This document shows, piece by piece, positions 232 to 63,610 of a DNA stretch of 64,000 bases (the stretch's first letter is position 1; each line of letters begins with the position of its first letter). Origin of the DNA: Planctomycetota bacterium. Its GTDB lineage: Bacteria > Planctomycetota > JAJSAM01. The notes beneath the pieces are model-generated. The model worked only from the letters and a program-made list of their open reading frames with translations. It was not told where the DNA came from and did no database searches. Location of the stretch: positions 1 to 64,000 of the forward strand of contig JAJSAM010000047.1 in the NCBI GenBank assembly GCA_024274785.1, written 5' to 3'. The position numbers and the translations under genes were made by a program.

Positions 232-798
232 GGGCTCGCGCCGGTCGGCCGCGGTCCGGCGGACGAGAGAGGCCTCGCGGTCGGGATTCCGACACCGCCG
301 ATCCGCGATCTGATTCCCCCCAGGTCCGTACCGGAGGAATTCGTCAGAAGAGTCGCCGCGAGCCGTTTCCCCCTGATGGCCGGCGATGTCGCGCTGAAGA
401 AGGGGGAGTTCGGGAAGGCGGCCATCGCGTTCGATCACGCCAGCCGTCGCCACCCCGAGTCGGCCGGACCGCTCTTTGCCCTCGGCGATGCGCTCCTCGG
501 TCTTGACCAGTTCGAACGTGCCGCCGGGAGTATCCGGAAGGGACTCACCAGGGCGCCCCAATGGGCCAATGCGCTGAGTCGCACCGGGAAGCGCGGGAAC
601 GCGAACCAACTGAGAGCAGTGGCGAAGTATGCACGGGAGCACCCGGGAAACGGCGACGCCTGGTTCTTGCTCGGCTACCTGCGGATGACATCGGGCGTCG
701 AGTCCGAGCGTGAACGCGCCGAACATGCGTTCAGAAACGCGGTGTCGATCGACCCCCGCGACGAAGCGTCCCTGCGCTACCTGCTCCGCTCCCGGTGA
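1..798 (+). CDS. C-terminal part of a repeat-containing protein with TPR-like domain (5' end outside window)
   Basis: Frame 1 is open from base 1 through the 33-bp repeats into the 376..798 ORF. TPR-like segments include 'AIAFDHASRRHPESAGPLFALGDALLGLDQFERAAGSIRKGL' and 'GDAWFLLGYLRM...AEHAFRNAVSIDPRDEASLRYLL'. Confidence 0.75.
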   Translation, partial: KLAPITSGRAAKLAPITSGRAAKLAPITSGRAAKLAPITSGRAANLAPITSGRAANLAPITSGRAANLAPITSGRAAGLAPVGRGPADERGLAVGIPTPPIRDLIPPRSVPEEFVRRVAASRFPLMAGDVALKKGEFGKAAIAFDHASRRHPESAGPLFALGDALLGLDQFERAAGSIRKGLTRAPQWANALSRTGKRGNANQLRAVAKYAREHPGNGDAWFLLGYLRMTSGVESERERAEHAFRNAVSIDPRDEASLRYLLRSR

Positions 799-971
799 GT
801 CGGGCGCCGTCCCGACCAGTGATATCCCCGCATTGACCGCCGGACGGCGGTGCGGTGCTCTCTTGCGGTCCGGACGGGGTGCGGGTTTCCGGCACAGGCG
901 GGACCTCCCTGGACGTCGCTGCGGTGGGTGTGGTCGAGACGGCGCTCGACCCTCCGAGGCGGTGGAGCCGC

Positions 972-1892
972 CTACTCGGCCAGGCCCTGCAGGTGGGCCT
1001 CGACATTTGGGCCGAGTTCGGCGAGACCGTAGCCACCCTCCAGGGTGGAAATCACCCGCCCGTCGGCGTGTATCTCGGCCATCCGCACGATCTTCTCGGT
1101 GATCGTAAGGAAGTCCTCGGTCCGCAGGTTCAGCCCGCCGATGGGGTCGTCGACGTGGGCGTCGAACCCGGCGGAGATGAGCACGATCTCCGGCCGATGG
1201 GCGGCGACTTCGCGGAGCCCCTGGTCGAGGGCCAGCAGGTAGTCTCCCGGTGTGGTGTGGGCGGGGAGAGGAACATTACGGTTGGCGGCGGCGCGCCGGC
1301 GGGAGTGGTACGGGCCCCCGGTGCCCGGGTAGAACGGATAGCGGTGCAGCGACAGGAAGTAGATCGACGGGTCGTCGGCGAAGATATCCTCGGTCCCATT
1401 GCCGTGATGGACATCGATATCGACGATGGCCACGCGGCCAAGGCCGTGACGGCGCCGCAGATACCTGGCGCAGACCGCGATGTTGTTGAACAGGCAGAAG
1501 CCCATCGCCCGGCTCTTCGTTGCGTGGTGCCCGGGCGGGCGGACCAGGCAGAAACCGCGCCGGCTTCTCCCGGTCATGATCTCGTCGGCTGCGGCGAGGA
1601 GCGCGCCAGACGCTTTTTCCGCGGCTTCGAGGGAGCGCCCGCCGGTGTGGGTGTCGCTGTCGAAGGACCCGTTCCGGTCGGCCACGCTCTTCACCATCCG
1701 GTAGTATCCGGGATCATGAGCCATGGTGATCTCATCGACCGTGGCTCGACGCGCGGCAACGAGCGGGACCTTCGCAAACACGCCGGCCCGCTCGAAGTGA
1801 TCGAGAATAGCGGTCACGCGGTCCGCGGACTCCGGGTGTCCGTACCCCGTGTCGTGATCGAGACTCACGCTGTCGTGGACGAGAAAAGCCAA
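972..1892 (-). CDS. Histone deacetylase family protein (AcuC/HDAC-like amidohydrolase)
   Basis: Motifs [62 protein letters not shown] start at 1892 with upstream GGAG fits the family N-terminus; the ORF itself runs to 1970. Confidence 0.9.
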
Positions 1893-5874: not shown

Positions 5875-6515
5875 AGCTCTTTGCCGACACCGCGGACGTC
5901 GAAGAGATCCGGAAGCTGAACGACCTCGGCATCATCGACGGGGTGACCACAAATCCCTCGCTGATCGCGAAAGAGGGGCGGAAGTTCGAGGAGGTCGTGC
6001 AGGAGATCGCCGAAATCGTCGATGGTCCCATCTCCGCGGAGGTCGTCTCCGTCAAGGCCGAGGGCATGGTGGCCGAGGGCCGGGAACTGGCGAAGCTCCA
6101 TCCGAACATCGTCGTCAAGATCCCGACCATCCTCGAGGGGTTGAAGGCCACCCGGATTCTCGCGAACGAGGGGACCCCGGTGAACATGACACTCTGCTTC
6201 TCCGCCACCCAGGCGCTGCTCTGCGCCAAGGCCGGCGCCGCCTACATTTCCCCGTTCGTCGGTCGACTCGACGACATCCACACCGCGGGTATGGGCCTGA
6301 TCGAGGAGATCGTCACGATCTACTCGAACTACGATTTCGAGACCGAGGTCCTCGTGGCGTCGATCCGGAGTCCCCTGCACGTGCTGGACGCGGCGATCCT
6401 CGGTGCGGACGTCGCCACCTGCCCGCCGAAGACGATCTACCAGATGATGGCCCACCCGCTGACGGACATCGGCCTGGCGAAATTCCTGGCGGATTGGGAG
6501 TCGGTCCCGAAATAG
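5871..6515 (+). CDS. tal: Transaldolase / fructose-6-phosphate aldolase-like (TalC/Fsa-type)
   Basis: [37 protein letters not shown]... VKIPTI... [31 protein letters not shown] overlap with uvrC. Confidence 0.95.
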
Positions 6516-6540
6516 CGCGCCCTGCATTCCCGGAGATCCG

Positions 6541-7004
6541 GCCGCCGTGCCGACCAGTCACAACGCCACCGCGACCCGGGAGTCCCGCCTGTGCCGGTGA
6601 ATCGCCCGCAAACCGGAAACCCGAACCGATCACCACCCGCCTCGGAGGGTCGGCCTCTGTGCCGACCAGTCGCAACGCCACCGCGACCCGGGAGTCCCGC
6701 CCGTGCCGGTGAATCGCCCGCAAACCGGAAACCCGAACCGTCCGCACCCCCCCTCGGAGGGTCGGCCGCTGTGCCGACCTGTCACAATGCCGCCTCGACC
6801 CGGGAGTTCCGCCTGTGCCGGTGAATCGCCCACCTGCCCCGGCGTAAGAGAGCCCCGATCGCCCCCTGGCCCGCAGGTCGTGTTCCGCGCGGAATCCCGG
6901 ATGTGCCGCGATGCTCCTTCACCTTCAGGACCGCGGGTCGTCTTCCGGCACAGGCGGGACTGGTCGAGACGGCGCTCGACCCTCCGAGGCGGTGGATCCG
7001 CCTA
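6541..7004. repeat. Cluster of family-A repeat elements: three ~112-bp tandem copies plus one inverted copy fused to the dinB stop codon
   Basis: GTGCCGACCAGTCRCAACGCC at 6547 and 6659, with a related copy at 6771. CTCGGAGGGTCGGCC and GTGCCGGTGAATCGCCCGCAAACCGGAAACCCGAACC recur. Inverted copy GGTCGAGACGGCGCTCGACCCTCCGAGGCGGTGGATCCGCCTA ends at 7004. Confidence 0.85.
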
Positions 7005-7529
7005 CATACCCCAGAGGTTTCCGGTGTGAACCGGCTTGCCGAGGAGTTTCAGGTAGTAGTAGAGCTGCGCCTTGTGGGATTCGAGGTGGCCCACCATCCC
7101 GAGCAGGTGCCGGCCCAGGGAAATCTCGACCTCGGGATTCCATGGCGCCGATTGCATCTTGTGTTCGAGATCCTCTTCTCCCGCACGCTCGATCATCTCG
7201 CAGGCGAGCGTCTTGTCCGCGGAGAGCAGGTCCACCGCCTGGGCCACGGATTCGACGGTGGGCATCTTCTCCGCGGGGGGAAGCATCTCCTCCTCCGGGA
7301 TCTCCTCGTAACTCTGCCCTTCGGGAAAGCCCCAGTCGCCGGTGACGAAACCCTTCATGCAGAAGCCGCACGCGGTCTGGATGTGGAAGAGGAGTTGCCC
7401 CATCGTCATCCAGTTCGAGCCGGTTTCGGGTTTGAAATCAAGCATGTCGTCCGTCACGAGGTCGATCAGGCCTTCCGTGGCCTTGTAGGATGCGGCGACC
7501 TCGACTTTGAGCAGTTCCGTCCAGTTCAT
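7002..7529 (-). CDS. DinB-like (four-helix, DUF664-type) family protein
   Basis: MNWTELLKVEVAASYKATEGLIDLV...NWMTMGQLLFHIQTACGF...GRHLLGMVGHLESHKAQLYYYLKLLGKPV. ATG at 7529; the longer ORF upstream is not needed. Confidence 0.8.
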   Translation of the reverse strand: MNWTELLKVEVAASYKATEGLIDLVTDDMLDFKPETGSNWMTMGQLLFHIQTACGFCMKGFVTGDWGFPEGQSYEEIPEEEMLPPAEKMPTVESVAQAVDLLSADKTLACEMIERAGEEDLEHKMQSAPWNPEVEISLGRHLLGMVGHLESHKAQLYYYLKLLGKPVHTGNLWGM

Positions 7530-17605: not shown

Positions 17606-17818
17606 TCATAGGCTTCGGATGGTCGGCCGCGGTGCCGACCACCCCTACCCGGGGAGCAGGCTGCGGTGTGACTCGTCGAGACGGCGCTCGACCCTCCATG
17701 GGCATGGTGCTGTCCACACTCGTCCTTCACCCCGTTCGCGTCCCCCTTTGCATTTTCTCGAATGCGGATCGAGCCCACCCTAGAATCGTCGCGGGCAATT
17801 CGCTCCGGAGATCCGTCC

Positions 17819-23453: not shown

Positions 23454-24353
23454 ATGAAGGGCATCTTCGTAGTCGCCTCACTGACCGCAATCCTTTTGCT
23501 TGCCGGTGGTTGTGAAGGAACGGCGGGTTCGGGTTCGACGGGTGAATCCACGCCGCCGGCGCCGGCCGCCACCACGAGTACCGGGCTCACCGGGCCGGGG
23601 ATCGCGGATGAGTACGGCCCGGACGCGAAGCGGAAGATGGATGTGGCCTGGCAGGCGTTCAAGGATGACGCCCCCGAGTGGCCGTACCTCCGCCAGGAAT
23701 GGATCAGTATCGGCCGTCGGGCCACCTCCACGCTCGTGGAGAACCTCTATGGAGCCATGCTCATCTCCGCCGCGGGGAATTTCACCGAGGGTTATGACCG
23801 GGCGCGGGGGGAACTCATCCTGCTCGGTGAGCTGGCGGTTCCGACGCTGGCCGCGGTGCTGGAGAAGGGCACCATCTACGACCCGCGGACACGGTCGGAT
23901 CTCCGCATGCCCACCGGGATGGTCAGTGCCACCACCGACATCATCGCCATGAGCCGGGGCTTCGCGGTGCCGTACCTCGCGAAACTCACCCGGAAGGACC
24001 GGCCGACGATCCGCCGCTCCGCGGCCGCGGGACTGGGGCAGACCGGCGCTCGATCCGCCGTGGCGCCCCTCACGAAGGTGCTCGAGGGAGCATCCGAGTG
24101 GTCGGAGCGGATGGTGGCGGCGCGGGCCCTCGGCAACCTCCGGTTCCCCGAGTCGGAAGCGGCGTTGATCCGCGCTCTCGAGGACACGGACGCGGAAGTG
24201 GTGGAGGTGGCGGCCCGCTCCCTCGCCCAACACAAGGCGCACAGTGCCCTTCCCGCCCTCGACAACCGTCGCCAGCGCGCCCAGGCGGCGGGCCGGCACC
24301 AGATCGCCGCGGCGTGCGGAGCGGCGGCGAAGGCAATCCGGGGAAGCCGGTGA
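23454..24353 (+). CDS. Lipoprotein with HEAT-like repeats
   Basis: Lipobox LLLAGGC. Repeats RPTIRRSAAAGLGQTGARSAVAPLTKVL and MVAARALGNLRFPESEAALIRALEDTDAEVVEVAARSLAQHK. Confidence 0.8.
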   Translation: MKGIFVVASLTAILLLAGGCEGTAGSGSTGESTPPAPAATTSTGLTGPGIADEYGPDAKRKMDVAWQAFKDDAPEWPYLRQEWISIGRRATSTLVENLYGAMLISAAGNFTEGYDRARGELILLGELAVPTLAAVLEKGTIYDPRTRSDLRMPTGMVSATTDIIAMSRGFAVPYLAKLTRKDRPTIRRSAAAGLGQTGARSAVAPLTKVLEGASEWSERMVAARALGNLRFPESEAALIRALEDTDAEVVEVAARSLAQHKAHSALPALDNRRQRAQAAGRHQIAAACGAAAKAIRGSR

Positions 24354-24880
24354 GCAGGTTCAGAATCGGCCGGAAGGGCGTCGCCTGCGGCGTCTGTGAT
24401 CGGGAGTTCGCCCCGGGGGACGAGTTCGTCTCGGCCATCTTCGAGGTGGATGCCGAGGGCGCCAACCCGGCCGACGAGGACGAGACCCGCACCTTCGAGC
24501 GCCTGGATGCCTGCCCGGGTTGCTTCGAGAAGATCGAGAAACCGGCCTACTCCCACTGGTTGACCAGCCTCCCGGTGGACGAGGCGAAACAGCCGCTTCT
24601 CGATCTCACGATGGCGCGCGACTTCCTGGTTCGCCTCTGTCGGGAGGACAACCCGGAACGCCAGGCCCTGGTCTACATCCTGACCCTCCTCCTGCTCCGC
24701 AAGCGAAGGGTGAAGCTTGTCACGGAGCGGGTGGAGAACGAGGTCACGGTCATGGACTTGACGGTCAAGACCGGCGAGGGTGATGAAATCGAGGAGATCA
24801 CCGTCCCGGTCTGCGAACTCTCGGAAGAGGAGACGACGGAGATCGAATCGGAACTGGGCCGGCTGTTCGGATTGGCGTAG
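24350..24880 (+). CDS. Hypothetical protein with N-terminal zinc-ribbon-like Cys pairs
   Basis: MSRFRIGRKGVACGVCDREFAPGDEF...CPGCFEKIEKPAY. GTGA overlap with the upstream lipoprotein gene. Confidence 0.7.
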   Translation: MSRFRIGRKGVACGVCDREFAPGDEFVSAIFEVDAEGANPADEDETRTFERLDACPGCFEKIEKPAYSHWLTSLPVDEAKQPLLDLTMARDFLVRLCREDNPERQALVYILTLLLLRKRRVKLVTERVENEVTVMDLTVKTGEGDEIEEITVPVCELSEEETTEIESELGRLFGLA

Positions 24881-25290
24881 GCCGCTCCGCGGCCTCGGAG
24901 GGTCGAGCGCCGTCTCGCCCAGTCACCATCGAACTTTTTCCCCGGGAGTTGCGCCTGTGCCGGTGAACCGTTCACCAACTGCAAGACCAGACCGTTCGCC
25001 CCCCCGATGTGGAAAACCGGTGTCCACGTCTCCTGGTGGCTGGCCTGCGTGCGGTTTTCCAGTGCAGGCGGGACCACCGTCGACGATGCTGCGTTGTGAC
25101 TGGTCGAGACGGAGCCCGACCATCCGACGGGGGAATCGCTGCCCGCCTCTTGAAATGTTCGCCCACCGTGGGCGTATTGCCTCTTGATTCGGAGGGGCGG
25201 CGTCCTCGCCGACCACGAACCCTGAAGAGCCGGACCACACGGGTCCCCTCGATCCGATCGGGGGAAGAGAGGGACGGGAACACGGCCTCC
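24878..25290. repeat. Cluster of family-A repeat elements between convergently diverged copies
   Basis: TAGGCCGCTCCGCGGCCTCGGAGGGTCGAGCGCCGTCTCGCCCA (24878 on), GCGCCTGTGCCGGTGAACC, inverted CCAGTGCAGGCGGGACC...GGTCGAGACGGAGCCCGACCATCCGACGG, and GGAGGGGCGGCGTCCTCGCCGACC. Confidence 0.8.
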
Positions 25291-53621: not shown

Positions 53622-54374
53622 ATGGCAGGTCACTCGCACTGGGCGGGAATCAAACACAAGAAGGCCCTCGTGGACGCGAAGCGGGGGAAGATTTTCTCGA
53701 AGATCGCGAAACAGATCACCATCGCCGCGCGAAATGGCGGCGGCGACCCCGCCGACAACCTGTCCCTCCGGTACTGCATCGATCGCGCGCGCGCGGCCAA
53801 CATGCCGAAAGACAACATCACCCGCGCTATCAAGAAGGGCACGGGTGAAATCGATGGAATCAACTACGAGGAGATCTGCTACGAGGGCTACGGCCCCGGC
53901 GGAGTGGCGATCATGCTGGGAGTCGTCACCGACAACCGCAACCGGAGCGCCGGCGAGATCAAGAGGCTGTTCGAGAAGTACGGTGGGTCCCTGGGGCGCA
54001 ACGGCTGTGTGGCCTGGCAGTTCGAGACGAAGGCTTTTCTCCTGGTCGACGCCGGCCGGTTCGACGAGGAGCATGTCTTTGAAGCCGCCATCGAGGGCGG
54101 GGCGGACGATATCGAGAAGTCCGGTGAGAGCTACGAGATCGTCGGACCGCCGGAGAGCTTCGAGAGTATCCGGGATGCCCTTGCCGCCGCGGAGATCGAA
54201 ACGGAATCCGCGTCCGTGACGAACATGCCCGGCAGCACGGTCGCCCTCGACGTCAAGACCGGCCTGAGAGTCCTGAAGCTGCTGGAAGCGCTGGACGACC
54301 ACGACGACGTGGATACTACCGACACCAACCTCGACGTCACCGACGAACTGATGGCCGCGGCGGAGGAAGACTAG
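53622..54374 (+). CDS. YebC/PmpR family protein
   Basis: MAGHSHWAGIKHKKALVDAKRGKIFSKIAKQITIAARNGGGDPADNLSLRYCIDRARAANMPKDNITRAIKKGTG. Confidence 0.97.
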   Translation: MAGHSHWAGIKHKKALVDAKRGKIFSKIAKQITIAARNGGGDPADNLSLRYCIDRARAANMPKDNITRAIKKGTGEIDGINYEEICYEGYGPGGVAIMLGVVTDNRNRSAGEIKRLFEKYGGSLGRNGCVAWQFETKAFLLVDAGRFDEEHVFEAAIEGGADDIEKSGESYEIVGPPESFESIRDALAAAEIETESASVTNMPGSTVALDVKTGLRVLKLLEALDDHDDVDTTDTNLDVTDELMAAAEED

Positions 54375-55340
54375 ATGCCTGCCGGGGGAATCGCGGGGGG
54401 CGCTGAGGATGTGGCGGAGAAGGTCCGGATCCTTCGCGAGAACATCGAGAAGGTCTTCATCGGCAAGCCGGCGGTGGTCACGAAGGTGCTCGTGGCGCTC
54501 TTCGCGGGCGGCCACATCTTGATCGAGGACGTACCGGGAGTGGGCAAGACCACGCTGGCTCGTGCGTTGGCCAGGTCCCTCGACCTCTCCTTCTCACGGG
54601 TGCAGTTCACGCCCGACCTGCTGCCGTCCGACCTGCTCGGGGTCTCGGTGTACAACCAGGGCACCGGGGAGTTCGAGTTCAAGAAGGGGCCGGTTTTCGC
54701 CTCGGTGGTGCTTGCCGATGAGATCAACCGGACGACCCCCCGGACCCAATCCGCCCTGCTCGAGGCGATGAGCGAGGCGCAGGTCTCGGTGGACGGCAAG
54801 ACCTTCCGGCTCGGACCTCCGTTCATGGTTCTCGCCACCCAGAACCCTTTCGAGTTCGAGGGGACCTATCCGCTGCCGGAGTCGCAACTCGATCGCTTCC
54901 TGATGAAGATCAGCGTCGGCTATCCCTCGCGTGATCACGAATTGGAGGTGCTCTCGAGTCAGCGGACGGCTCACCCCATCGACTCGACTGTCGCGGTCAT
55001 GAGCGACGTCGACATCCAGGCGATCCAGCAGCGCGTGAAGGAGGTCCGCCTGGAGGAGTCGCTCGCCGGATACATCCTCTCCCTCGTGACCGAGACGCGT
55101 CGCAGCAAGTCGCTCACCATCGGCGCCAGCCCGCGTGGTTCGCTCTTCCTCTATCGAGCCGCTCAGGCCCTCGCACTCGTCGAAGGCCGGGATTACGTGG
55201 TTCCCGACGACATCAAGCGCCTGGCGGTTACAGTGCTGGCGCACCGCATCATCGGCAAGGGCTTCGCGTACGAGGGCGGACAGGATGAGCGGGAGAGAAT
55301 CGTTCGGGGGATCCTGGAGACGGTCGAGGTTCCGGTGTGA
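54375..55340 (+). CDS. MoxR family AAA+ ATPase
   Basis: [96 protein letters not shown]. Confidence 0.93.
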
Positions 55341-57420: not shown

Positions 57421-58503
57421 ATGGAGAAGTCGCACGATTTCCTGACCGGGGTGGTGTTCTTCGTGCTCCTCGGTGTTCTCGGGTTCTTCACCATCGTATT
57501 GGCGGACGTGAGGTTCGGTGACCTGCCGACGCGCACGGTGCGGTTCGAGGCGATCGAGGGACTCGAGCCGGGCCATGCGGTTCTGATCGACGGCGTCCGC
57601 TGCGGCCGGGTCAGTGAAGTGCGCCGGCCCGCCGGGCAGCGTGAGATCGACGTCGTGCTGGAATTCGACGAGGAGCCGGCGTTGTTCGAGGGGGCCACCT
57701 TCACCATCAAGAGCGCCAGCATGCTCGGCGGGCGGGTGATGGAGATCGTGAACCTGCCCGATGCAACGGCGAAGCTCGGGGCGGTGGGGCTCACTGGCAG
57801 CGTGGCCGGAGACCCCCTGGTCCAGGCCGGGAAGCTCCTCAGCGACGAGAACATCGCCCGGGTCCAGGACATCCTGGCGCATCTCGATGCCCGGATCGTA
57901 GAACTCGAGGAGTTCACCGTGGCCTTGCGGGATAAGGGCCCGGAGCTGATGGACAACCTGAACAACCGGGCTCTGGAGATCGAGGAGTTCACCGTGGCCT
58001 TGCGGGACAAGGGGCCGGAGCTTCTGGATCATCTGAACGACCGGGTCGTCGAGATCGGAGACTTCACCACGGCCCTCGGAGAGCAGGGGCCGGAACTCCT
58101 GGCCAAGCTGAACGAAAGGGCCGACGAGATCGAGGGATTCACGAAGTCGCTCGGACGGGACGGCCCGGAGATCCTCGCCGAAACGAAGGCGATGGTCGCG
58201 GAACTGAGAGGCATGACCGCGAAGATCTCGAGGGGCGAAGGCGTCGGCCGGGTGCTCCTCCGGGATGACCCCTGGATCAAGTTCGAGAGTGCCGTCGCGA
58301 AGGTGGAGAAGGCCGCGGAGAACGTGGAAATCGCCACGGGCAGCCTGCGCCGCAAGGACAACATCGTCGGCCTCCTTTTGACCGACCAGGAGATGGCGAT
58401 GCAACTCAAACGCGCCATGAAGGCCCTGAACGACTTCCTGGAAAGCCAGCGCGAGGACGCCCCGCTGACGTCGTTCGCGGGTGTGCTGCTCACCCCGTTC
58501 TAG
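57421..58503 (+). CDS. mlaD: MCE/MlaD domain protein with four 25-aa helical repeats
   Basis: N-terminal TM; RFEAIEGLEPGHAVLIDGVRCGRVSEVR (MCE domain); then 4 x 25-aa repeats beginning VELEEFTVALRDKGPEL. Confidence 0.9.
   Translation: MEKSHDFLTGVVFFVLLGVLGFFTIVLADVRFGDLPTRTVRFEAIEGLEPGHAVLIDGVRCGRVSEVRRPAGQREIDVVLEFDEEPALFEGATFTIKSASMLGGRVMEIVNLPDATAKLGAVGLTGSVAGDPLVQAGKLLSDENIARVQDILAHLDARIVELEEFTVALRDKGPELMDNLNNRALEIEEFTVALRDKGPELLDHLNDRVVEIGDFTTALGEQGPELLAKLNERADEIEGFTKSLGRDGPEILAETKAMVAELRGMTAKISRGEGVGRVLLRDDPWIKFESAVAKVEKAAENVEIATGSLRRKDNIVGLLLTDQEMAMQLKRAMKALNDFLESQREDAPLTSFAGVLLTPF
57898..58197 (+). repeat. 75-bp in-frame tandem repeat, 4 copies, within the mlaD-like gene
   Basis: GAACTCGAGGAGTTCACCGTGGCCTTGCGGGATAAGGGCCCGGAGCT and GAGATCGAGGAGTTCACCGTGGCCTTGCGGGACAAGGGGCCGGAGCT etc. 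at 75-bp spacing. Confidence 0.85.
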
Positions 58504-58600
58504 GCGGCCCTGCCGCCTCGGAGGGGCGGCCGCGGTGCCGACCACACGCCGCCGACCTCTTTTCGGGGAAGTCACGCCTGTGCCGGAAACCCGTGCGCCG
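58501..58600 (+). repeat. Family-A repeat element fused to the mlaD stop codon
   Basis: TAGGCGGCCCTGCCGCCTCGGAGGGGCGGCCGCGGTGCCGACCACAC...AGTCACGCCTGTGCCGGAAACC. Confidence 0.8.
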
Positions 58601-58641
58601 TCTCGACCGCTGAGGAGCATCGCCTCTCCGGGGGGCGACAC

Positions 58642-59535
58642 TCAACGTGAGTCGCGATGATACCCCTTTGCCGCGCACCATGATCCGTGCCGGCCGGCCA
58701 CCGCCAGGCCGGCCACGATGACCGCCAGCCCGAGCAGCACCCGCGCATAATGGGCCTGCTCGCCGAAGATCAGCCAGGCGGCGAGCACCGCCAGGGGGAT
58801 CTTCAGGTTGTTCGCGGCGGCGAGAGTGCCCGGCCCGGTGCGCGCCGCTCCCTTGTTGAAGAGGTAGAAGCCGAGTCCGGTGGGGATGATCCCGAGGTAG
58901 AGCAATGCCAGGATGGCGTCCCTCGCGAACCGGAGGTTGCCGAAATCCGCGGTGATGACCGCGAAGAGGCCCGTAAAGAGCGCTGCGCCAAGAACCATGT
59001 AGGCGATCATTCCCGCTTCGGCCGGCCTTGAACCGGCGGCGTCATTCCGGCGGGCCATGCGCTGGAAGCCGAGTTGGCCGATGGCGAAACAGAGGTTCGC
59101 GCCCTGCAGGATCCCGATGCCGGTGAGCGCGGCGGGTGTGTCGAAGCTCCGTGCGACGATGACCAGGGCCCCGGCGACGGCGAGGACGGCCGCGGCGGCG
59201 TAGCGCCAGGACCAACGGCGCGAGAGGATGGCGTCGAGCAGCACCACGTAGAGCGGGGTGAAAATGGTGAAAACCGCGACCGCGTAGGCCGGCAGGTACT
59301 GGTAGGCGGTGATGTAGAGCCAGTACATGATGCCGAACTGCACGGTGCCGAGCACCATCAGGCGGATGGCGCGGCCGAACCCGAGTCCGGACCGTGCGAG
59401 CCAGGGGGAGAAGACGAGGAGCGCGAGCCAGAGCCGGATGGCGGCGACCACCAACGGGTCGTATCCGGTCAGAAAGGTCTTGATCAGCCCGAAGGACAAC
59501 GCCCAGATCAGGGAGGTGACGATGAGGTAGCTCAC
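58642..59535 (-). CDS. EamA/DMT-family transporter
   Basis: Ten hydrophobic segments; SYLIVTSLIWALSFGLIKTFL, ALLYLGIIPTGLGFYLFNKGAARTGPGTLAAANNLKIPLAVLAAWLIFGEQ. GTG start at 59535. Confidence 0.88.
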   Translation of the reverse strand: MSYLIVTSLIWALSFGLIKTFLTGYDPLVVAAIRLWLALLVFSPWLARSGLGFGRAIRLMVLGTVQFGIMYWLYITAYQYLPAYAVAVFTIFTPLYVVLLDAILSRRWSWRYAAAAVLAVAGALVIVARSFDTPAALTGIGILQGANLCFAIGQLGFQRMARRNDAAGSRPAEAGMIAYMVLGAALFTGLFAVITADFGNLRFARDAILALLYLGIIPTGLGFYLFNKGAARTGPGTLAAANNLKIPLAVLAAWLIFGEQAHYARVLLGLAVIVAGLAVAGRHGSWCAAKGYHRDSR

Positions 59536-61979: not shown

Positions 61980-63164
61980 GTGCAGGTGTCCCGGCAAGCG
62001 CAGGCGATCCTCCTGTTGACCGTGCGGTTCTCCGCGCAAAGCGACGCAAACCCGCTGACGCTGACTGAATGGGACCGCTTCGCCGCGTGGCTGCAGGGGA
62101 TGGACCGTCGGCCGGAGGACCTGTTGGGCCAGGAGCGCGGATCACTGCTCGCGGAATGGCAGGATGCGGAAATCAGTGCTTCGCGGCTCGGAATGCTGCT
62201 CGATCGGGGTTCCGCACTCGCGGTGGCGCTCGATCGCTGGCTCGGCGCCGGGCTCTGGGTTGTGACCCGGGGTGACCGGCATTATCCTTCGCGCTTGAAG
62301 CACCGGCTCGGCCGGATGTCTCCTCCGGTGCTGTTCGGCTGTGGCGACCCCGCACTCCTTCACCGTGGCGGTGTGGCGGTCGTCGGTTCGCGAAAGGCTC
62401 CGCCCCCGGACCTGGAGTATGCCTGGCACCTCGGCGCACGGATCGCGGAGGCGGGGCTCCCGGTCGTCTCCGGCGGTGCCGTCGGTATCGACGAGGAAGC
62501 CATGGCCGGGGCGCTCGAGGCAGGCGGGTCGGTGGTGGGGGTGCTGCCGCATGGTCTGCTCGGCGCCACCGCCGAGAGCCGTTACCGTACGCACCTGATG
62601 ATGGGGGAGATGGCGCTCATCTCTCCGTACCAGCCGGAGGCCCGTTTCGAGGGCGGGAATGCGAAGCGGCGGAACAAGATCATCTACTGTCTTTCCGATG
62701 CCGCGGTGGCGGTGCATTCCGGGAAGACCGGAGGCACCTTCTCCGGTGCGAGCCAGGTCCTCCGGGAGGACTGGATTCCCCTCTGGGTGAGAGTCAATGC
62801 GGATCCGGAATCGGGGAATGCCGCTCTCATCGAGTCCGGCGGATGGGCGCTCACCGTGGATGCCGCCGGTGTGGATCCCGCCGTGCTTGCTGCTCCGCGC
62901 CGGGATGCCATGGCGAACGGCGGTGTGAGTGGGGGCGGGGCGGAGGCCATTTATCACAGCTTCCTCACACCAGCTCTTCAACTCTGCGGTGAACAGGCGA
63001 GAACCCTCGATGAGCTGTCCGTGGCTCTCGGGCTCACGACGGATCAACTTGGTCTCTGGCTGTCCCGCGCGGTGTCTGAAGAGCGCCTGGTAAAGCTCGC
63101 TGACCCGGATCGCTACGAACCTCCGAGGTCCACGCCTGGTCAGCTGACCCTCTTCGATGCCTGA
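61980..63164 (+). CDS. Divergent DprA-like (SLOG/Rossmann) DNA-processing protein
   Basis: GGVAVVGSRKAPPPDLEYAWHLGARIAEAGLPVVSGGAVGIDEEAMAGALEAGGSVVGVLPHGL; GNAKRRNKIIYCLSDAAVAVHSGKTGGTFSGASQVL; C-terminal winged-helix-like segment. GTG start abuts the recQ stop. Confidence 0.85.
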   Translation: MQVSRQAQAILLLTVRFSAQSDANPLTLTEWDRFAAWLQGMDRRPEDLLGQERGSLLAEWQDAEISASRLGMLLDRGSALAVALDRWLGAGLWVVTRGDRHYPSRLKHRLGRMSPPVLFGCGDPALLHRGGVAVVGSRKAPPPDLEYAWHLGARIAEAGLPVVSGGAVGIDEEAMAGALEAGGSVVGVLPHGLLGATAESRYRTHLMMGEMALISPYQPEARFEGGNAKRRNKIIYCLSDAAVAVHSGKTGGTFSGASQVLREDWIPLWVRVNADPESGNAALIESGGWALTVDAAGVDPAVLAAPRRDAMANGGVSGGGAEAIYHSFLTPALQLCGEQARTLDELSVALGLTTDQLGLWLSRAVSEERLVKLADPDRYEPPRSTPGQLTLFDA

Positions 63165-63610
63165 ATCGGGGCCTCCCTGTCCGATATACCGCATATCATC
63201 GGAGGGTCGGCCGCGGTGCCGACCACACCCACCCGATCTTCCTCCCCGGATGTTGCGCCTGTGCCGGCAAGGCGTTCGCCGACCACGAGACCAGACGTTC
63301 CACTGCCCGAGCCTCGGGCTTCAGTACGCGCCCGTCCGACTGGGAATTGCAGTCGGCGTCTTTCGGTGGTTGGAGTACGGGCGGTTTTGGGCACAGGCGG
63401 AGTGAACTCGTGTGTGTGGCCGTCTCGAACGTCGGCGTACCCGGCAGGCACCAGTTCGCGGAGTGCATGAGCGTCCTGTCGCTCCTTCTTCTCCCTGATG
63501 AGAGCGCGGACGAACTCACTCGGCGTCGAGAACAAGGTTCCATCGCCGGGGTTCTGGTCGAGGAATGCCCGCAGTTCGTCGGTGAGTGAGAGATTGATGG
63601 ACCGGGCCAT
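63140..63610 (-). CDS. ParD/RHH-like antitoxin fragment reading into repeat sequence
   Basis: MARSINLSLTDELRAFLDQNPGDGTLFSTPSEFVRALIREKKERQDAHAL resembles ParD-type antitoxins. The portion below about 63400 is repeat-derived. Confidence 0.6.
   Translation of the reverse strand: MARSINLSLTDELRAFLDQNPGDGTLFSTPSEFVRALIREKKERQDAHALRELVPAGYADVRDGHTHEFTPPVPKTARTPTTERRRLQFPVGRARTEARGSGSGTSGLVVGERLAGTGATSGEEDRVGVVGTAADPPMICGISDREAPIQASKRVS
63195..63400. repeat. Family-A repeat elements between convergent dprA-like and parD-like genes
   Basis: CGGAGGGTCGGCCGCGGTGCCGACCACACCCACC...GTTGCGCCTGTGCCGGCAAGG; inverted half GGCACAGGCGGAG near 63390. Confidence 0.75.

Follow-up and report, generated by a model that had tools for sequence, protein, structure and literature searches.

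The element that follows the stop codons of four unrelated genes in the window (the whole 64,000-nucleotide stretch of Planctomycetota DNA that was analyzed) is part of a dispersed palindromic family, built on a GGAG tag and a covarying 7-bp hairpin that we call hp2. This family is probably a lineage-specific miniature repeat of the REP/REPIN kind, which spread in the genome and lies against native stop codons, chiefly between convergent genes. Its copies are dispersed, their paired structures covary, they are placed at gene 3' ends and in convergent gaps, the stops there are native, and the repeat is absent from relatives, all of which belong to other genera than the source, one incomplete metagenome-assembled genome.

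The initial annotation had aligned four sequences at the ends of an HDAC, a dinB, a zinc-ribbon, and an mlaD gene and held that their TAG left edge is the actual stop of each gene. All four sequences were recovered at the positions given there, and every TAG proved to be the stop of a gene called by a simple codon-usage caller (HDAC, 972-1868, minus strand; dinB, 7002-7529, minus strand; zinc-ribbon, 24314-24880, plus strand; mlaD, 57421-58503, plus strand). Pfam searches confirmed Hist_deacetyl, DinB_2, and MlaD domains in the HDAC, dinB, and mlaD products, while the zinc-ribbon protein had no Pfam match. In the four genes, GGAG begins exactly 16 nt past the stop and is preceded by a further hairpin, hp1. 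The suspicion that the transaldolase stop is a decayed fifth case was borne out: its TAG lies at 6513-6515, GGAG follows again 16 nt on, and our covariance model scores the arm at 6530-6599 (plus strand) as a family member with an E value of 4e-9. The copy reported at 17611, away from a stop, is likewise a genuine member whose TAG is not a stop codon; its GGAG lies 67 nt downstream of the end of the called gene. The features of the window are as follows.

794-817, plus strand: inverted partner arm of the HDAC copy, a GGTGAG variant that holds the TGA with which the opposite gene (1-798) ends
932-955, minus strand: GGAG and hp2 of the HDAC copy (model match 887-957, minus strand)
957-974, minus strand: stop TAG of the HDAC gene with hp1
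6513-6599, plus strand: transaldolase stop TAG, then left arm one of three, with hp1 and hp2 both decayed (model match 6530-6599)
6644-6667, plus strand: second tandem left arm in the transaldolase-dinB gap (GGAG and hp2)
6756-6779, plus strand: third tandem left arm in the same gap (GGAG and hp2)
6962-6985, minus strand: right-arm hp2 of the transaldolase-dinB element
6987-7004, minus strand: stop TAG of dinB with hp1, the stop position being that of the orthologs
17617-17697, both strands: 81-bp inverted hp2 pair (17617-17640, plus; 17674-17697, minus), away from stop codons
24878-24895, plus strand: stop TAG of the zinc-ribbon gene with hp1 (AGGCCGC-TCC-GCGGCCT), a covaried stem
24897-24920, plus strand: GGAG and hp2 of the zinc-ribbon copy, left arm of a 229-bp inverted element (found by pattern and model)
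25102-25125, minus strand: right-arm hp2, inverted partner in the element that starts at 24897 (found by pattern and model)
58501-58518, plus strand: stop TAG of mlaD (58501-58503) with hp1 (AGGCGGC-CCT-GCCGCCT, 58502-58518), the stop position being the same in 13/13 relatives
58520-58543, plus strand: GGAG tag and hp2 of the mlaD copy (model match 58518-58588)
58575-58586, plus strand: CGCCTGTGCCGG box of a class I arm, nearly invariant in the class I alignment
63201-63224, plus strand: GGAG and hp2 of a class I arm, 36 nt past the TGA of the gene at 61980-63164

The left arm of the transaldolase-dinB element is tandemly triplicated (window 6531-6866, unit of 112 nt). Other repeats were also seen. 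The window has 33-bp direct tandem repeats at 1-295, with at least six copies in register, and three 75-nt (25-residue) repeats in the mlaD coding region at 57905-58129. A second dispersed motif, like ACTCAACGTGAGTC...GATACCCCT, lies beside several elements (L011, L021, and the window at about 58600-58660), another repeat, GGGCGGGATGCAGCGGCCCTCGAATCCCG...TTATTCTTGCGCGGCCCCT, occurs in intergenic gaps at L061, L076, L015, and L091, and GGAAACCGTCCGGC units form a short tandem array upstream of a gene at L042.

The common core of the family is GGAG followed by hp2 (GGTCGAG-CGCCGT-CTCGACC and variants), rather than the TAG edge. A degenerate pattern of this core gave 167 matches in the 4.5-Mb genome, against 14 for a reversed-pattern control, leaving about 153 units above control. 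The stricter CGGAGGG form gave 60 matches against 0 in the control; across 98 relatives it gave just 3 single matches, each with different loops. Similarly, a 71-position covariance model detected at least 83 class I arms in the host genome and none in 58 relatives. The pairing of hp2 is maintained by compensation, since 179 of the 228 variable-pair cells are Watson-Crick, compared to a mean of 103 and a maximum of 124 in 2,000 shuffles, and the covariation score is 0.27, against at most 0.10 for slid-column controls. Many units are inverted pairs of 81 to 297 bp, among which sizes of about 85 and of 228 to 257 bp recur. Grouped by eye, they form a class I, which spans about 230 bp and whose arms each carry a CGCCTGTGCCGG box, a class II of about 85 bp, and a class III that carries GTGCCGGCAGTCCGGGAACGTCAC.

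Nearly all copies lie between genes: 105 of 107 collected matches are outside called genes, and the two intragenic ones resemble chance matches. Convergent gaps made up 28 of 57 gaps with an element and 17 of 127 without (P = 5e-7), the stretches having been chosen because they hold the element and the element-free gaps being their neighbors rather than a random genome sample. For 52 copies, a same-strand stop lies at most 100 nt upstream, and among these the distance from the stop to GGAG peaks at exactly 16 nt (10/52; P of about 1e-10 under a uniform null). The covariance model added 20 matches, mostly too diverged for the pattern and again mainly at gene 3' ends, typically some 29 to 58 nt from the stop; one of them, L192, was previously known as a stop-hairpin case, and no further stop-hairpins were found among these 20. 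At L008, the complete gap between two convergent stops consists of hp1 and hp2.

The usual form of hp1 is T-AGGCGGC-nnn-GCCGCCT-C-GGAG, and in its stem variants GGCCGC/GCGGCC and GCCCGC/GCGGGC both arms are changed. Perfect stems of at least 6 bp directly 5' of GGAG were found in 14 copies, compared to 0.6 expected from shuffles. In 12 of these 14, the 5' arm contains or touches the stop codon, and the copy at C56:20495 (L119/L192) is a 13th. The initial annotation had proposed to count how often the TAG is a stop across the genome, and this count gave about 13 of about 105 copies examined with the stop within the upstream hairpin. Upstream hairpins that are intact nearly all hold the stop (12 of 13 with a 7-bp stem, besides a single variant of 8 bp), and in 11 of 13 hp1 copies the register with respect to the stop is the same. 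At L002 (TAA) and L048 (TAG), the stem reaches into the codons before the stop.

We also considered whether hp1 could be a general gene-end hairpin, and this was rejected, as the TAG cases from about 352 sampled genes and from the entire genome were all element-linked. Hairpins that start at the second base of the stop numbered 12 among 352 genes, against 1.0 expected; 11 of the 12 adjoin the element, a linkage with a Fisher P of about 1e-11. Genome-wide, the pattern TAGGCSGnnnnnCSGCCT gave 10 correctly paired hairpins, each of them followed by the element (10/10), while the eleventh match is mispaired and has no element after it. Because stop-hairpins were found only beside the element, we assign hp1 to the element rather than to gene ends in general.

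The initial annotation had offered two readings, the first being that the element targets gene 3' ends and supplies their stop codon. The targeting half is in good agreement with the intergenic location, the convergent enrichment, and the 16-nt peak, whereas the supply of a stop does not hold for mlaD and dinB, where the stops are native. All 13 element-free mlaD relatives stop at the same residue, mostly with TGA where the host has TAG, and in two element-free dinB orthologs the last residue is likewise the same Met, followed by TAG. The suggested comparison with orthologs thus revealed the same protein end in both genes instead of a shortened or replaced C terminus. Since native stops are conserved in relatives, the element abuts these stops and did not shorten the proteins. 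The C termini of the HDAC and zinc-ribbon proteins differ by several residues among relatives and are little guide to exactness. Truncation or replacement of the C terminus is therefore out for mlaD and dinB by their orthologs and is unlikely elsewhere by the completeness of the domains, Hist_deacetyl, TonB_C, and CAP domains being complete and ending 2 to 4 residues before the stop.

Among stops in the 13- to 16-nt register, TAG is over-represented (11/14, P = 8e-4), and it is possible that the letters AG of the stop derive from the element. An insertion that preserves the stop would have this effect: the element would begin with the AG of hp1 and integrate after the first T of the stop (T^GA or T^AG), remaking TAG, with gene-edge insertions alone surviving or being targeted. 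The excess of TAG speaks for this, as do the TGA stops of most mlaD relatives, the register shared by 11 of 13 copies, and one intact hp1 that reads CAG (CAGGCGC) at L066:8100, off any called stop. However, the TAA stem of L002 and the AATAG stem of L048 enter pre-stop codons, the element-free dinB orthologs already read ATG-TAG, and a stop-codon-reading transposase is not known to us, so that we consider this explanation rather unlikely. A more ambitious version of the mobile repeat, which we put forward only tentatively, is a 3'-end module that would absorb the host stop into its outermost hairpin, pairing being kept by compensation or template switching, so that the stop and the protection of the mRNA 3' end would be united in a single structure, with effects on termination and mRNA lifetime. 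L002 and L048, with stems that run into the last codons, are the cases cited for it.

The second reading of the initial annotation was a conserved 3'-UTR or terminator module. A structured 3'-end module is supported, but of another kind than canonical intrinsic terminators, which consist of a GC hairpin followed by a U-tract. Here the sequence after hp1 is CGGAGG and that after hp2 is of the ACACCC/AGTCAC type, and because no U-tract comes after either hairpin, the module is not of the canonical Rho-independent type. The window had no Rfam match at gathering thresholds, and none up to E=1 was found at 58440-58700. Thermodynamic folding of whole 3' regions was not unusual (z from -2.1 to +0.7), mlaD at -2.1 being the one exception to the lack of a clear signal. 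If the module were an immobile, native one, hp1 and hp2 would be a host termination signal evolving with its genes, in line with the covarying stems, the position at gene 3' ends, and the convergent enrichment. This appears improbable, since besides the absent U-tract, stop-hairpins occur solely beside the element, the module is missing at the orthologous gene ends of relatives, and the long inverted arms and tandem copies (6531-6866) resemble mobile repeats.

As to the base before the stop, TAG stops are mostly preceded by G (81/128) and TGA stops by C (96/197 genes) in the sampled genes. G precedes TAG in 9 of 11 hp1 copies against the 81 of 128 TAG-stop genes sampled, so that a GTAG tag as a feature of hp1 is unsupported, G before TAG being common. 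It is very improbable that hp1 is a separate, older mini-hairpin (a GTAG-type REP with a CT cut site) at whose 3' edge the GGAG element inserted: it does have the look of GTAG-stem-CT, and TnpA-REP cleaves at CT and uses a GTAG tag (PMC8266576), but the genome-wide TAGGCSG pattern yields no unoccupied hp1, and the GTAG is not significant.

We thus favor a REP-like repeat abutting native stops. Its GGAG-hp2 element would be, or have been, mobile, and its copies presumably spread through the genome and persist mainly downstream of genes. Abutment could have arisen by deletion of the spacer between stop and hairpin, by stop-preserving insertion, or by both, and selection or template-switch correction may keep the stems at stops perfect. 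The single register of 11 of the 13 hp1 copies is not readily explained by random insertion and trimming. Other points that count against the favored explanation are that the repeat was seen in one metagenome-assembled genome, that its tag is GGAG instead of GTAG or CGTC, that no transposase with its ends was found, and that folding of whole 3' regions is not unusual.

Since the 5' arm of hp1 holds the stop, the end of the mRNA would be formed by two stacked hairpins, leaving hardly any unpaired bases behind the stop. These could block 3'-to-5' decay of the mRNA and insulate convergent genes from mutual read-through, and hp1 may slow terminating ribosomes, by analogy with stop-proximal REPs of E. 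coli. Since about 13 copies are in one register and about 90 are not, this genome could serve as a natural experiment on the effect of hairpin-stop distance on translation and mRNA stability. Overall, these data separate two easily confused ideas, a repeat that supplies a stop and a repeat that abuts a native one, and they add an uncultured lineage to those with REP-like, stop-hugging repeats, one in which the tag is an unusual GGAG and the end holds two hairpins.

MITEs are non-autonomous inverted-repeat elements. Like them, the family is small, non-coding, dispersed, and intergenic and has inverted ends, but no target-site duplication, parent insertion sequence, or autonomous copy was noticed among the loci examined. 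In the broad sense of the term, the family is a REP, being palindromic, extragenic, and present in about 153 units, and its inverted doublets at recurring spacings are those of REPINs. It falls outside the GTAG/CGTC REP superfamily, as nearly all aligned class I copies have GGAG, and its membership in the RAYT-mobilized REPs or REPtrons is not supported. The sole Y1_Tnp gene found (L032:5851-6850; G000:C17, about 53850-54850) is flanked by other sequences, namely GGGGTCAGGTCTGACATTTGTC inverted repeats, and only chance-like matches to the GGAG unit, with 3 mismatches, were found in 14 kb around it. This RAYT-like protein was therefore rejected as the mover of the GGAG element. It seems to own a small repeat family, because GGGGTCAGGTCTGACATTTGTC-like ends recur as short repeats near L067 and L042. 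No transposase flanked by GGAG-hp2 ends was found in the genome, which is 90% complete, so that the gene may be missing from the assembly. We call the family REP-like because architecture and placement fit REPs and REPINs, while a GTAG tag and a matching RAYT were looked for and not found.

REPs are chiefly found where neighboring ORFs converge or run in the same direction, the distance to an ORF 3' end often being below 20 bp, and a TAG stop is often provided by the termini of GTAG REPs (PMC3733652). REP-type repeats that overlap TAG stops are thus already reported, whereas the literature searched held no earlier description of the GGAG family with its stop-codon hairpin. The family shares with GTAG REPs (PMC3733652) short, tagged, high-copy palindromes that are mostly extragenic and form inverted dimers, convergent or co-directional placement very near ORF 3' ends, and frequent TAG at the termini. 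It differs in its GGAG tag, in longer arms (71 nt or more) with a conserved CGCCTGTGCCGG box, in the extra stop-codon hairpin outside the tag, and in having no associated RAYT that we found. REPINs are inverted REP doublets that form hairpins (PMC3116915), and they resemble our family in their two inverted tagged hairpins with a spacer, their compensatory changes, and their tandem clusters. Class II, at about 85 bp, is REPIN-sized; in contrast, class I measures about 230 bp, and no cognate RAYT flanked by the repeat was found. Finally, translation in E. coli is lowered by REPs that lie less than 16 nt from a stop (Liang et al. 2015, as cited in PMC12306157). These stop-proximal REPs are similar in having a hairpin within about 15 nt of the stop, whereas in the family described here the hairpin contains the stop itself and a second hairpin comes next.
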